In this document: piece after piece, positions 6,034 to 10,806 of the stretch
How positions within the stretch are numbered: the stretch's first letter is position 1
How the letters are laid out: every line of letters begins with the position of its first letter
NCBI RefSeq assembly: GCF_000428585.1
Contig: NZ_AUAF01000009.1
Coordinates: forward strand, 1-64,000
Direction: 5' to 3'
Source: Zooshikella ganghwensis DSM 15267
GTDB lineage: Bacteria; Pseudomonadota; Gammaproteobacteria; Pseudomonadales; Zooshikellaceae
DNA: 64,000 nucleotides
The notes under the pieces: generated by a model
The model's database searches: none
What the model saw: only the letters and a program-made list of their open reading frames with translations
What the model was told of the DNA's origin: nothing
Made by a program: the position numbers and the translations under genes

Positions 6034-6711
6034 CTATCTTTCTTGTTTTTTCTTGGCGACGTTGTCACGCAAGTAAACAGGAATCGCTTGTTCTGGAGGT
6101 ACTGTTTCTCCACATTTCCATGCCAGTTCACCCAACAAAGCAATATCCTGAGCATGAGGCAATATATCTTTGTAAATAACCTCAGGTTTAAAAGGAATTC
6201 TTGGCGAGTAGCTCCATCCACTACCTACACCTACCCACCCAATCATATCCTCATAACCTGTTGCATTTTCTGGACTGATGACGGACTCTGGAATGACGAG
6301 TGCTAATTTGCCTTCAGTATTTACGGTATAAGCAGCAAAGTAGATCTCATCCATTCTTGCATCTATTGCCGTAAATACCTTTTCATGTTGATAAACCCGA
6401 AAAGCATAATGTGCAAGTGCAGCTAAATTTGAGATACCAATAACAGGTAAATCTGCCGCATAAGCCAGCCCCTGAACAATACCTGCCGCAACTCGAACCC
6501 CCGTAAAAGCACCTGGACCCTGTCCAAACGCAATGGCGTCTAGCTGTTTTATACCCAGGCCTGCACTAGAAAGTAACTCATCAACCATAGGTAAAATGCG
6601 CTCGTTATGTTCTCTAGGTGCAACAACAAACGACTCTTTGACATCGCCCTCAATAAGTAATGCAGCAGAACAAGCTTCTGTTGCTGTATCAATAGCTAAT
6701 ATGCGACTCAT
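6034..6711 (-). CDS. tsaB: tRNA threonylcarbamoyladenosine synthesis protein TsaB
   Basis: Partner of TsaD and TsaE in making t6A37, the modification of ANN-decoding tRNAs. TsaB (YeaZ) is an inactive ASKHA-fold relative of TsaD that forms the heterodimer scaffold. The 225-residue product (E. coli 231) opens with MSRILAIDTATEACSAALL, the phosphate-1 loop of the fold, and carries FGQGPGAFTGVRVAAGIVQGLAY, the strongest family signature. Start ATG at 6711. It stands alone here; adk and ppc, nearby in some relatives, are several kilobases away. Confidence 0.93.
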   Translation of the reverse strand: MSRILAIDTATEACSAALLIEGDVKESFVVAPREHNERILPMVDELLSSAGLGIKQLDAIAFGQGPGAFTGVRVAAGIVQGLAYAADLPVIGISNLAALAHYAFRVYQHEKVFTAIDARMDEIYFAAYTVNTEGKLALVIPESVISPENATGYEDMIGWVGVGSGWSYSPRIPFKPEVIYKDILPHAQDIALLGELAWKCGETVPPEQAIPVYLRDNVAKKKQER

Positions 6712-7019: not shown

Positions 7020-7042
7020 ATAGATGCCATCCTGGCATCTAT
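7020..7042 (-). terminator. Rho-independent terminator of the AlgP-like gene
   Basis: Perfect 9-bp stem TAGATGCCA (7021-7029) / TGGCATCTA (7033-7041) with a 3-base loop. On the minus strand it is followed by TATTTTTTT, a near-ideal terminator 56 bases past the stop codon. Confidence 0.85.
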
Positions 7043-7097: not shown

Positions 7098-8075
7098 CTA
7101 AGCTTGTTTTTTAGGTGGACGACCACGACGTTTAGTCGTTGTAGTTTTAGCTCTAGTAACTTTTGCTTTAGTGGTTGAACCTGCTGGACGTCCGCGACGC
7201 TTGGGTGCTGCCGTGCCAGTAGCGGTTGTTGTAGCAGCTGCTGCCTTTTTAGGTGGGCGACCACGACGCTTTGGAGTCGCACTAGTTGTTGCTGTTGTAG
7301 CAGCTGTTGCCTTTTTAGGTGGACGACCACGACGCTTTGGTGCAGTACTCTTAGCCGCGGTTGTTGTCGCTGTTGCTTTTTTAGGTGGACGACCACGACG
7401 CTTAGCTGTTGTGGAAGTTGCAGCAGTCGTTTTGGCTGTTGTAGATGCTGGCTTACGTCCCCGTTTTTTCGCACCTGCAGTAGAAGTTTTTTTCTCACCC
7501 ATTTCCTTAGCTTTAACTTCTACTTTTTTGAGCGCAACTTTCAATTTTTTGTTTTCTGCAACTTCACGCTTTTTAACTTTTGCTTGATCAGCGTGCTCAC
7601 GGCTTTTCAGCCACTTAGCTTCAAAGTTAGCAATTGCTTTTGCAAGATCTTGTTCAGCTTTTGCTTTTAAAGAGCCTTGATACTCTTCTACACGTTGCTT
7701 AGCAGCGTCTTTTAATTGTTCGCCTTTAGCAACAACCTTTTCAATTTCTACAGCCTGTTTTGCTGCTGCAAGCTTCTCACGCATTGCATTCCAATCGGCT
7801 TGAGCTTTTTCAATAGCAGCATTAGCGCGCTCTACTGCTTTTTTATTCGTAGCAGTAGCACTTGACTTCAATTTTGTTTTAGCTGTAGCCAATTTAGCTT
7901 TGGCTTCATCTACTTTGAGTTTTGCGTTTGCAACTCTTTCAGTTACCTTTTCCAGCTCAGCCATTACTTTTTCAAGACCAGTATAGGTAGCCGTTGTTTT
8001 TGTTGCTTTAGCAGCAACTGCTTTTTTTACAGGGGACTTTTTTGCTTTAGTCCCAGGTTTTCTACCTCTCGCCAT
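7098..8075 (-). CDS. AlgP-like (histone H1-like) protein with AT-hook repeats
   Basis: Likely a DNA-binding, nucleoid- or regulator-type protein related to AlgP/AlgR3, which in Pseudomonas aeruginosa affects alginate gene expression. Start chosen at ATG 8075 (MARGRKPGTKAKK), with CAGGAG 7 bases upstream; the frame continues further but without support. The product has 325 residues. Residues about 25-190 are rich in Ala, Lys and Glu and look like a long helix or coiled coil (AlgP-type). The C-terminal third is low-complexity Ala/Thr/Lys with six RGRPP or RGRKP cores, plus one at the N-terminus. RGRP is the core of the AT-hook that binds the minor groove of AT-rich DNA. P. aeruginosa AlgP instead has KPAA repeats. 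Single gene with its own terminator. Function in this organism is inferred. Confidence 0.8.
   Translation of the reverse strand: MARGRKPGTKAKKSPVKKAVAAKATKTTATYTGLEKVMAELEKVTERVANAKLKVDEAKAKLATAKTKLKSSATATNKKAVERANAAIEKAQADWNAMREKLAAAKQAVEIEKVVAKGEQLKDAAKQRVEEYQGSLKAKAEQDLAKAIANFEAKWLKSREHADQAKVKKREVAENKKLKVALKKVEVKAKEMGEKKTSTAGAKKRGRKPASTTAKTTAATSTTAKRRGRPPKKATATTTAAKSTAPKRRGRPPKKATAATTATTSATPKRRGRPPKKAAAATTTATGTAAPKRRGRPAGSTTKAKVTRAKTTTTKRRGRPPKKQA
7107..7470 (-). repeat. In-gene tandem repeats encoding AT-hook units
   Basis: The block around AGGTGG(A/G)CGACCACGACG recurs at about 7113, 7251, 7317 and 7383. The last three are spaced exactly 66 bases (22 codons) and a diverged unit lies near 7180. 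Each encodes a KRRGRPPKK-type motif separated by Ala/Thr-rich linkers. In-frame repeats of this length can change copy number between strains. Confidence 0.8.
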
Positions 8076-10080
8076 TTCATTTCTCCTGAGGGGAAATCTA
8101 ATATTAGAGTTATCAGTTAAAACATAGCACAAAAAACTGTGCATCAACAAACAGTTAGGGGCGAATAATATTTAAATCGTAAAAATTTTTCACCCTCTTT
8201 TTACACGAAAGTTGAATCTTTTTAAGATTTGATCACCAAACGACATATATCTTCTTTAAAAACCAGACACAAACTTGAGCTATCCTGCCTATCAATTCTT
8301 AGCCTAATCGCAATTTATTTTTGTAGTCAGACTCAATAAATAGCTCGATGAGTGCAGCTAACCTCGTATAGTTAAGATAAATCTGTAGCAAAGAATGTAT
8401 TCCTCTGTCTTTATCCTAACAAATTTAGAAACATAATTCTAAAATGATAACATATCCATTTATCCGCATCATTTAGAGAGTAACAGACTCCTCATACCCT
8501 TTATGCAATTAACATCCTTAATCAAAACAAACAACTATTCTAACATCTTACCGATTGCATTAACCAAAATGATTCAATCAACCTACATGAATTCAATTTC
8601 AGGTAGCAACACTAATCTAGCCAGTTTAACCACTTAATTTTACAAAAAGCTTATCTCTCACAGCTCTTTCTTTCACAAGTACGACAGCACCAATCTAAAT
8701 TGAAGGGAGTATATTCAACATGATTCCTCATAAAAAGACATACTAAACCACTAACAATATAATAAGCTCATTCACAAACTGAATAGGCTGACTTTGAAGT
8801 ATTTCTCTAGGTAAAAGAAGAAATAACCCGCCACTATCTTCTATATACAGACAACATGTCTTACCAATGTCTTGGGAGTATCAGCCAGACTGTCGCCTTA
8901 ACCTTCCAGATAACTTAACATTACAGATAAAAAGTACGACAAATTCTCGACACATAAGTCGGTTTGTTGCTATCACCAACAACAAGTTGAGAACAGTTGT
9001 GTTTATACTGACAACTTATATCACTCCGACTACTTACTCTTAAACGTCAAACAGAGAGCGATTTAGCCCTGAGGCTTGAATACAATATTATTTTTTCAAA
9101 TCACATTGATGACCTTATTTCTATACCGCCTACCAGAGCAATGGCATATATTTACTTATAAAACCACTTCTTAAAACACCCCTATAAAGCCTGTATGATG
9201 ACCGTAAAATGCCTAAATCCTTCTACAGAAACTTGTTTACCGCACTTGTAGCAGAACGATCAACATGAGTTATCGAGTCTTTAGTGGTCATTGGCATACA
9301 TTGAAGTACAACAGGTGCACATTTAGATATAACAAGAAATAGGATCACAACTATTTATGAAACAAGTGCTAGTAGTATTGTAAACAGTAGCAACGAAGGA
9401 TGATTTTCTGCTGAGAAAAGAGAAACTAATTAACGGATTGCATCAGCACAGTCACTACTCACAACAAACTATTTTTAGCAATTCAGGTTAATGGGTGATT
9501 ACAGCCTCACTTACAGTAACCACCCAGGCTCAGTTGTCTTTCGATTAAGCTATACAATCTTGAAAAAACAAATGGATAGGACATGCTTTGTTTAAAAAGA
9601 TAAACAGGCTCAACAACACCGATGAGGAAGATAATAGTATTTATGGTTAATAACCCTACCGATATCACTTCGTAAATTCACGTTGCATTGACTGTCCAAC
9701 AATCCTTATTAACATTAAGGCAACAGAGCTATCACAAATAAATTCAACCAGTGCAAACCTACATTTTGCAATCTCTAATGCTTAAATAAGCACTTGTGGT
9801 ATTTCGATATACGCCATTGGCAGACTACAAATACTAAAATTGATGCGCGGAGGGTATACATTGGAAACACATTAAAAGTAGTGATACTGTTCTAATATGA
9901 ACTTATTGCCTGTAAAGCATTATTTTATGAATTAAATGCTGAGACTCAAAAAGTAATCGACTCAATAAATGCATTACAGCCACAAAAAGTCACATGAAGC
10001 CTTCTATCTATAAAGCATCAAGGGTTTATAGGGCTATACTTTTTGAAAAAGAGATTGGGGGGCAGCGAGTGATAATAATT
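8076..10080. other. Long gene-free stretch (about 2 kb)
   Basis: No open frame of 60 codons or more on either strand, very AT-rich, with stops in every frame. A short coding-like run (codons from about 9897 to 9998, reading YELIACKALFYELNAETQKVI and ending in TGA) lacks a start and may be a gene remnant. A hairpin lies at 9493-9525. I recognise no tRNA, rRNA or known small RNA. The left end should hold the promoter of the AlgP-like gene. Confidence 0.5.
9493..9530. other. Hairpin with possible alternative pairing
   Basis: GGGTGATTAC (9493-9502) pairs with GTAACCACCC (9516-9525), 9 of 10 positions. AGCCT just inside the loop (9503-9507) is complementary to AGGCT just outside (9526-9530). This could be part of a small structured RNA or chance; no U-run follows. 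Confidence 0.3.
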
Positions 10081-10086
10081 ATTTAA

Positions 10087-10109
10087 GTTGAGGGGGAAAA
10101 TCCCCCAAC
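10087..10109 (-). terminator. Rho-independent terminator of adk
   Basis: GTTG-A-GGGGG (10087-10096) pairs with CCCCC-AAC (10102-10109) with one bulged base. On the minus strand it is followed by a T/A-rich tail. It begins 14 bases after the adk stop. Confidence 0.7.
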
Positions 10110-10122
10110 GACTGACTAATAT

Positions 10123-10806
<684 letters not shown>

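Follow-up and report, generated by a model that had tools for sequence, protein, structure and literature searches.

Gene and genomic surroundings

The open reading frame on the minus strand at positions 7098–8075 of the window, the 64,000-nucleotide stretch of DNA from the marine bacterium Zooshikella ganghwensis analysed here, is a real gene that encodes an H1-like AT-hook protein of 325 amino acids (hereafter the window gene and the window protein). Its ATG at position 8075 is accompanied by an AGGAG ribosome-binding site, and both the start codon and the AGGAG are kept in four genomes of the family. The downstream neighbour (6034–6711, minus strand) and the upstream neighbour (10123–10782, minus strand) are genes that we take, from their families, to be tsaB and adk, and both are conserved neighbours at the loci of a gene family of the adk–tsaB interval that we call family X.

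Conservation within the family extends over approximately 125 bases 5′ of the window gene (81% with loci L031 and L032). This conserved region (8070–8198, minus strand) comprises a sigma-70-like pair, GTGAAA-17-TATTAT, a GCACAGTTTTTTGTGC hairpin and the AGGAG, where the promoter-like pair and hairpin are pattern and consensus matches only. The hairpin (8127–8142) resides in the presumed 5′ untranslated region, and at least its second arm is kept in four family genomes. Between the window gene and tsaB lies a terminator-like hairpin of 10 pairs followed by a T run (7020–7042, minus strand), again a pattern match only. Because of the promoter-like pair upstream and the terminator-like hairpin before tsaB, the window gene looks like its own transcription unit.

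The gap to adk (8151–10122) is approximately 2 kb long, contains no open reading frame of at least 80 amino acids, and has a GC content of 35%, compared with 41% at the locus. The same gap measures 2.3–2.4 kb in L031 and L032, with a median of 289 bases in 84 loci, and conservation is restricted to the part adjoining the window gene. The best match to a known RNA in this gap was Afu_294 (E 0.19), which is below the gathering score.

Hook motifs and the basic tail

The window protein is made up of a short N-terminal segment, a helical Ala/Lys/Glu-rich part (about residues 31–197) and a disordered basic tail (residues 197–325; 7101–7487, minus strand). The N-terminus reads MARGRKPG, and its hook (ARGRKP, residues 2–7; 8055–8072, minus strand) is identical in Zooshikella harenae. 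Across the protein, RGRK starts at residues 3 and 205 and RGRP at residues 227, 249, 271, 294 and 317, giving spacings of 22, 22, 22, 23 and 23 residues between the tail hooks, while the tail DNA carries direct repeats of 66 nt. An earlier note on this DNA had described six RGRPP/RGRKP cores plus one at the N-terminus; the number holds, with seven cores overall, but the tail cores are four RGRPP, one RGRKP and one RGRPA. The tail is 128 amino acids long with a charge of +39 and no Asp or Glu, and KPAA is absent from the protein.

The same note had read these cores as AT-hook-type motifs, a reading borne out by three lines of evidence. First, 20,000 shuffles of the tail gave a mean of 0.05 RGR[PK] motifs and a maximum of 3, compared with the 6 observed. 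Second, the Pfam AT_hook model (PF02178), run on the tail alone as taken from the DNA, scored 23.8 bits across five stretches against a curated cut-off of 17.4. Third, the hooks are under purifying selection, as judged from the comparison described below. With the full-length protein as query, AT_hook gave no match at E ≤ 1, and the three single hooks of the window protein listed in a scan of the whole genome scored 13.9–14.9 bits, below the cut-off. A PDB sequence search with the tail returned no matches.

The partner for the selection analysis was Z. harenae (L004), whose protein shares 85% identity with the window protein. All 57 hook residues are identical between the two species, with 14 synonymous and no non-synonymous differences in the hook codons (dS 0.40, dN 0). 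For the core, 141 of 168 residues are identical (dN 0.087), and for the spacers 77 of 99 (dN 0.123), with seven gap columns, one of which adjoins a hook. Outside the hooks, 49 of 267 aligned residues differ, against 0 of 57 within them (Fisher p = 5e-5). Part of this conservation could reflect a general demand for basic residues.

The helical core

The core (7485–7982, minus strand) matched the family-X profile with an E-value of 6.8e-54, the profile being built from 14 rows that include the window protein. An AlphaFold2 model built on two sequences predicted helices at residues 33–71 and 75–197, with the remainder at low confidence (mean pLDDT 67, pTM 0.35). Searches of Pfam and NCBIfam gave no family for the core, with matches far below the cut-offs only. 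Among these, SMC, MutS2 and PspA were discounted as evidence, since such matches are typical of helical Ala/Lys/Glu sequence.

Family X in the adk–tsaB interval

Of 293 genomes of the order, 122 gave a match to the family-X profile at E ≤ 1e-3. Beyond the order, a sample of 274 genomes of the class (own genome included, E ≤ 1e-8) yielded one weak match. We counted 96 of the 101 genomes with a match down to E 1.3e-15, leaving out G001, G002, G049 and G037, which have short loci only (5, 10, 0 and 1 GRP, respectively), and G280, with no X open reading frame in its stretch. L199 was also left out, as the profile matched the AlgP locus there, and the remaining 21 of the 122 genomes, with weak or partial matches, are outside the counts.

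The gene order is adk, sometimes hemH, X, sometimes mobA, tsaB and uppP. Both flanks are collinear at 75 of the 96 loci, adk alone at 9, tsaB or uppP alone at 11, and neither at 1, so that 95 loci keep at least one of these neighbours; several of the partial loci lie near contig ends. The window gene has both the core profile match and the collinear adk and tsaB–uppP neighbours. From profile and synteny, it is a member of an unnamed family located between adk and tsaB–uppP and separate from AlgP. Among the titles and beginnings of abstracts searched, mostly of papers outside subscription journals, we recognised none as describing family X; a literature search of the same mostly subscription-free kind gave no paper treating both AlgP and the AT-hook.

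Relationship to AlgP

The window protein had been proposed to be an AlgP homolog. AlgP (AlgR3) of Pseudomonas likewise has a helical Ala/Lys/Glu N-terminal part and a long disordered tail of basic repeats; for the P. aeruginosa protein, the accessible text of PMC9239181 gives a 124-residue helical domain and a KPAA tail. Using the N-terminal part of P. aeruginosa AlgP as a query, we obtained strong matches (E ≤ 1e-41) in 12 genomes, all from a single family, presumably Pseudomonadaceae. All 12 of these canonical AlgPs have no GRP and 3–37 KPAA, as opposed to the AT-hook tail of the window protein, and the four whose surroundings were examined (L193–L196) adjoin algQ and ABC-F. No family-X match was found in the 12 genomes at E ≤ 1e-3.

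The window gene resides between tsaB and adk rather than between algQ–FKBP and ABC-F. In its own genome, contig C22 carries the latter neighbourhood, within which lies a second H1-like gene (G000:C22:32507–33655, minus strand, corresponding to L030 6508–7656), which encodes 382 amino acids with seven GRP hooks and the C-terminal sequence SIFDPATDM, and which synteny marks as the AlgP ortholog. Comparing profiles with hhalign, with 16 picked rows for the C22-type (AlgP-locus) family, we found 91–94% between the C22-type family and canonical AlgP, 96% between the window family and the C22-type family, and just 3.1 and 13.8%, in the two directions, between the window family and canonical AlgP. 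These last values are no detectable similarity when set against the reversed-profile controls, which reached 10% (the window family against itself reversed) and otherwise 0.04–2.3%. With the C22-type profile, 10 of 12 canonical AlgPs were recovered, at E-values between 8.7e-4 and 3.5e-7, whereas the window gene was matched only at E 4.6e-4. Together, the hhalign scores and the profile recovery identify the C22 gene as the ortholog of AlgP, with the window gene as a distant paralog. We have rejected AlgP orthology for the window gene on the adk–X–tsaB synteny and the lack of clear core profile similarity to canonical AlgP. The term 'AlgP-like' survives at the level of the distant kinship with the C22-type family, through which the link to Pseudomonas AlgP runs, and fails as any closer identity. 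The proposal of an AlgP whose KPAA repeats are replaced by AT-hooks misses the window gene yet describes the AlgP ortholog on C22. Being AlgP-like and rich in Ala and Lys is not enough to make a protein AlgP, as illustrated by this genome, which has one of each kind.

To describe the tails at the AlgP locus, we took the best 30 of 111 matching genomes. Four of these (G048, G072, G034 and G152) had no AlgP-neighbourhood marker and were not counted as AlgP, leaving 26; the genes of G120 (contig end) and G084 (internal stop) are incomplete. All five AlgP-locus genes from the organism's own family bear 7–11 GRP. The other 21 bear none in 20 cases and one in a single case, and hooks at both loci are thus seen, within these best 30 of 111, only in the organism's own family. 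In this set, most of the well-matched AlgP-locus members examined finish with an acidic segment containing S(I/L)F. Relatives of this family with hooks are also found away from the AlgP locus, with 7 GRP in G019 (L025), 2 in G072 and 1 in G152, and no tested marker within about 1.5 kb. L025 (G019:C4) is a further H1-like protein, at neither the adk–tsaB nor the AlgP markers; its genome also contains the other two genes.

At the nucleotide level, the window gene and the C22 hook DNA agree at best at 69%, along 224 bases in which synonymous codons are mixed. The hooks were thus not copied recently between the two genes, while an old exchange is possible.

The kinship with AlgP also bears on a different function, in which the core would bind polyphosphate, PHA or another body and the tail would merely hold DNA, tethering a granule to the nucleoid. 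AlgP localises to polyphosphate granules and its C-terminal tail is needed for granule spacing, according to the accessible part of PMC9239181, and the layout is common to PhaF, PhaM and AlgP in what is available of PMC13052382. Family X, being distantly related to the AlgP-locus family, could share such a role by analogy. Against this, X differs from canonical AlgP, an AlgP-locus relative coexists with X in 27 of 30 genomes (the best 30 of 111), and the window protein gave no phasin match in Pfam at E ≤ 1, unlike PhaF with its phasin domain. We regard a granule tether as somewhat unlikely.

Tail variation and genome composition

At least one GRP is present in 47 of the 96 family-X proteins; 28 have two or more and 14 five or more, and the members with no GRP have PAKKA-like tails. 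The earlier note would have counted it against its own reading if the hooked form were ordinary among relatives, and this is partly the case (28 of 96 with two or more hooks).

That note had also linked the hook tail to an AT-rich genome, in which the AlgP-type protein could become AT-selective. Similar composition and layout, the distant kinship via the AlgP-locus family, and the hooks on the genome's real AlgP ortholog speak for this view. In addition, two or more hooks are found somewhat more often below 45% GC (9 of 19) than from 50% upwards (14 of 50), with a Fisher p of 0.16. Yet synteny and profiles set the window gene apart from AlgP, and the number of GRPs does not correlate with GC, measured on the locus stretch, over the 96 members (Spearman rho −0.01, p 0.92). 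Tails with at least two hooks occur at 40 to 57% GC, and members at 53–57% GC bear 3–9 hooks. We have rejected the dependence of hooks on an AT-rich genome, and consider the combined proposal very improbable. A tree-corrected test of hooks against GC had four supported independent pairs only, too few to decide alone. The lack of correlation agrees with the RGR form being linked to silencers of low-AT genomes in the accessible text of PMC4466236.

On a quick tree of the core (87 of the 96 members, core score of at least 75 bits), the label 'two or more hooks' changes 8 times, with at least 4 of these changes forced by well-supported branches. All 19 single-hook members have their hook 3–13 residues from the C-terminus, suggesting that the hook arrays arose by amplification of an ancestral C-terminal hook. 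Hooks stand in place of PAKKA-type tails in several lineages, and growth from one terminal hook to an array is the probable route.

The same data could describe a generic polycation, with RGRP as one tolerated charge spacing that brings no AT selectivity. The mutual substitution of PAKKA-type and hook tails among homologs, the independence of hook number from GC, and the repeated changes on the tree are what a generic tail would give. However, GRP would not be needed in such a tail, and the hook cores are invariant between species while the spacers change, the spacing is regular at 22–23 residues, and single hooks are always at the C-terminal end. We judge a purely generic tail to be unlikely.

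Proposed function and comparison with known systems

Six regularly spaced hooks, a flexible tail and a helical stalk would fit a multivalent architectural protein, and we consider it reasonably likely that the window protein is a multivalent, minor-groove-binding, H1/HMGA-like nucleoid protein, with DNA binding and AT preference predicted from its sequence. The helical core would likely act as a self-association or partner-binding stalk. Each tail hook could occupy the minor groove at a short AT-tract and, with six hooks placed in this way, one molecule might hold several AT-tracts on one or several DNA segments. Such binding would compact DNA or bridge it in the manner of HMGA, with an H1-like protein as the scaffold.

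The likeness to animal HMGA (HMG-I/Y) lies in the possession of multiple AT-hooks, each a GRP core flanked by Lys, Arg and Pro (TPKRRGRPPKK in the window protein, TPKRPRGRPKK in the HMGA consensus). It is a resemblance in motif rather than a demonstrated homology; the window protein is bacterial, has more hooks and includes a long helical core. CarD of Myxococcus xanthus has an RNA-polymerase-binding N-terminal domain, and no such domain was found in the window protein in Pfam at E ≤ 1. Like the window protein, CarD is bacterial with an HMGA-like DNA-binding part (PMC8156234 and PMC4374960). The Q/RGR AT-hook-like motif of H-NS and Lsr2 inserts Arg-Gly-Arg in the AT-rich minor groove, as far as the available text of PMC4466236 goes; in these two proteins, one motif resides inside a folded domain, whereas the window protein has seven outside its helical core. 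The AlgP-locus family of non-Pseudomonas members of the order shares the AT-hook tail in this organism but lies beside algQ, FKBP and ABC-F, coexisting with the window gene as a paralog.

More tentatively, family X may be an order-wide bacterial HMGA/H1 hybrid family whose tail has switched several times between PAKKA-type repeats and AT-hook arrays grown from a terminal hook, independently of genome composition, with the AlgP paralog having acquired the same tail type in the organism's family. If so, one cell would hold two multi-hook nucleoid proteins, and nature would have supplied a series of variants in which to ask what an H1-like tail gains from minor-groove selectivity. In bacteria, such tails are usually regarded as non-specific DNA glue. 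With the same core and chromosomal position and a varying tail, family X would offer matched natural variants on whether minor-groove reading matters.

Single hooks are also present in two near-identical 77-residue proteins of the same genome (L206 1336–1569 and L210 1336–1569, on contigs C204 and C152), each with one PRGRP hook. The genes beside them are near-duplicates, lysozyme-like by eye, and the two proteins are possibly phage or other mobile copies.
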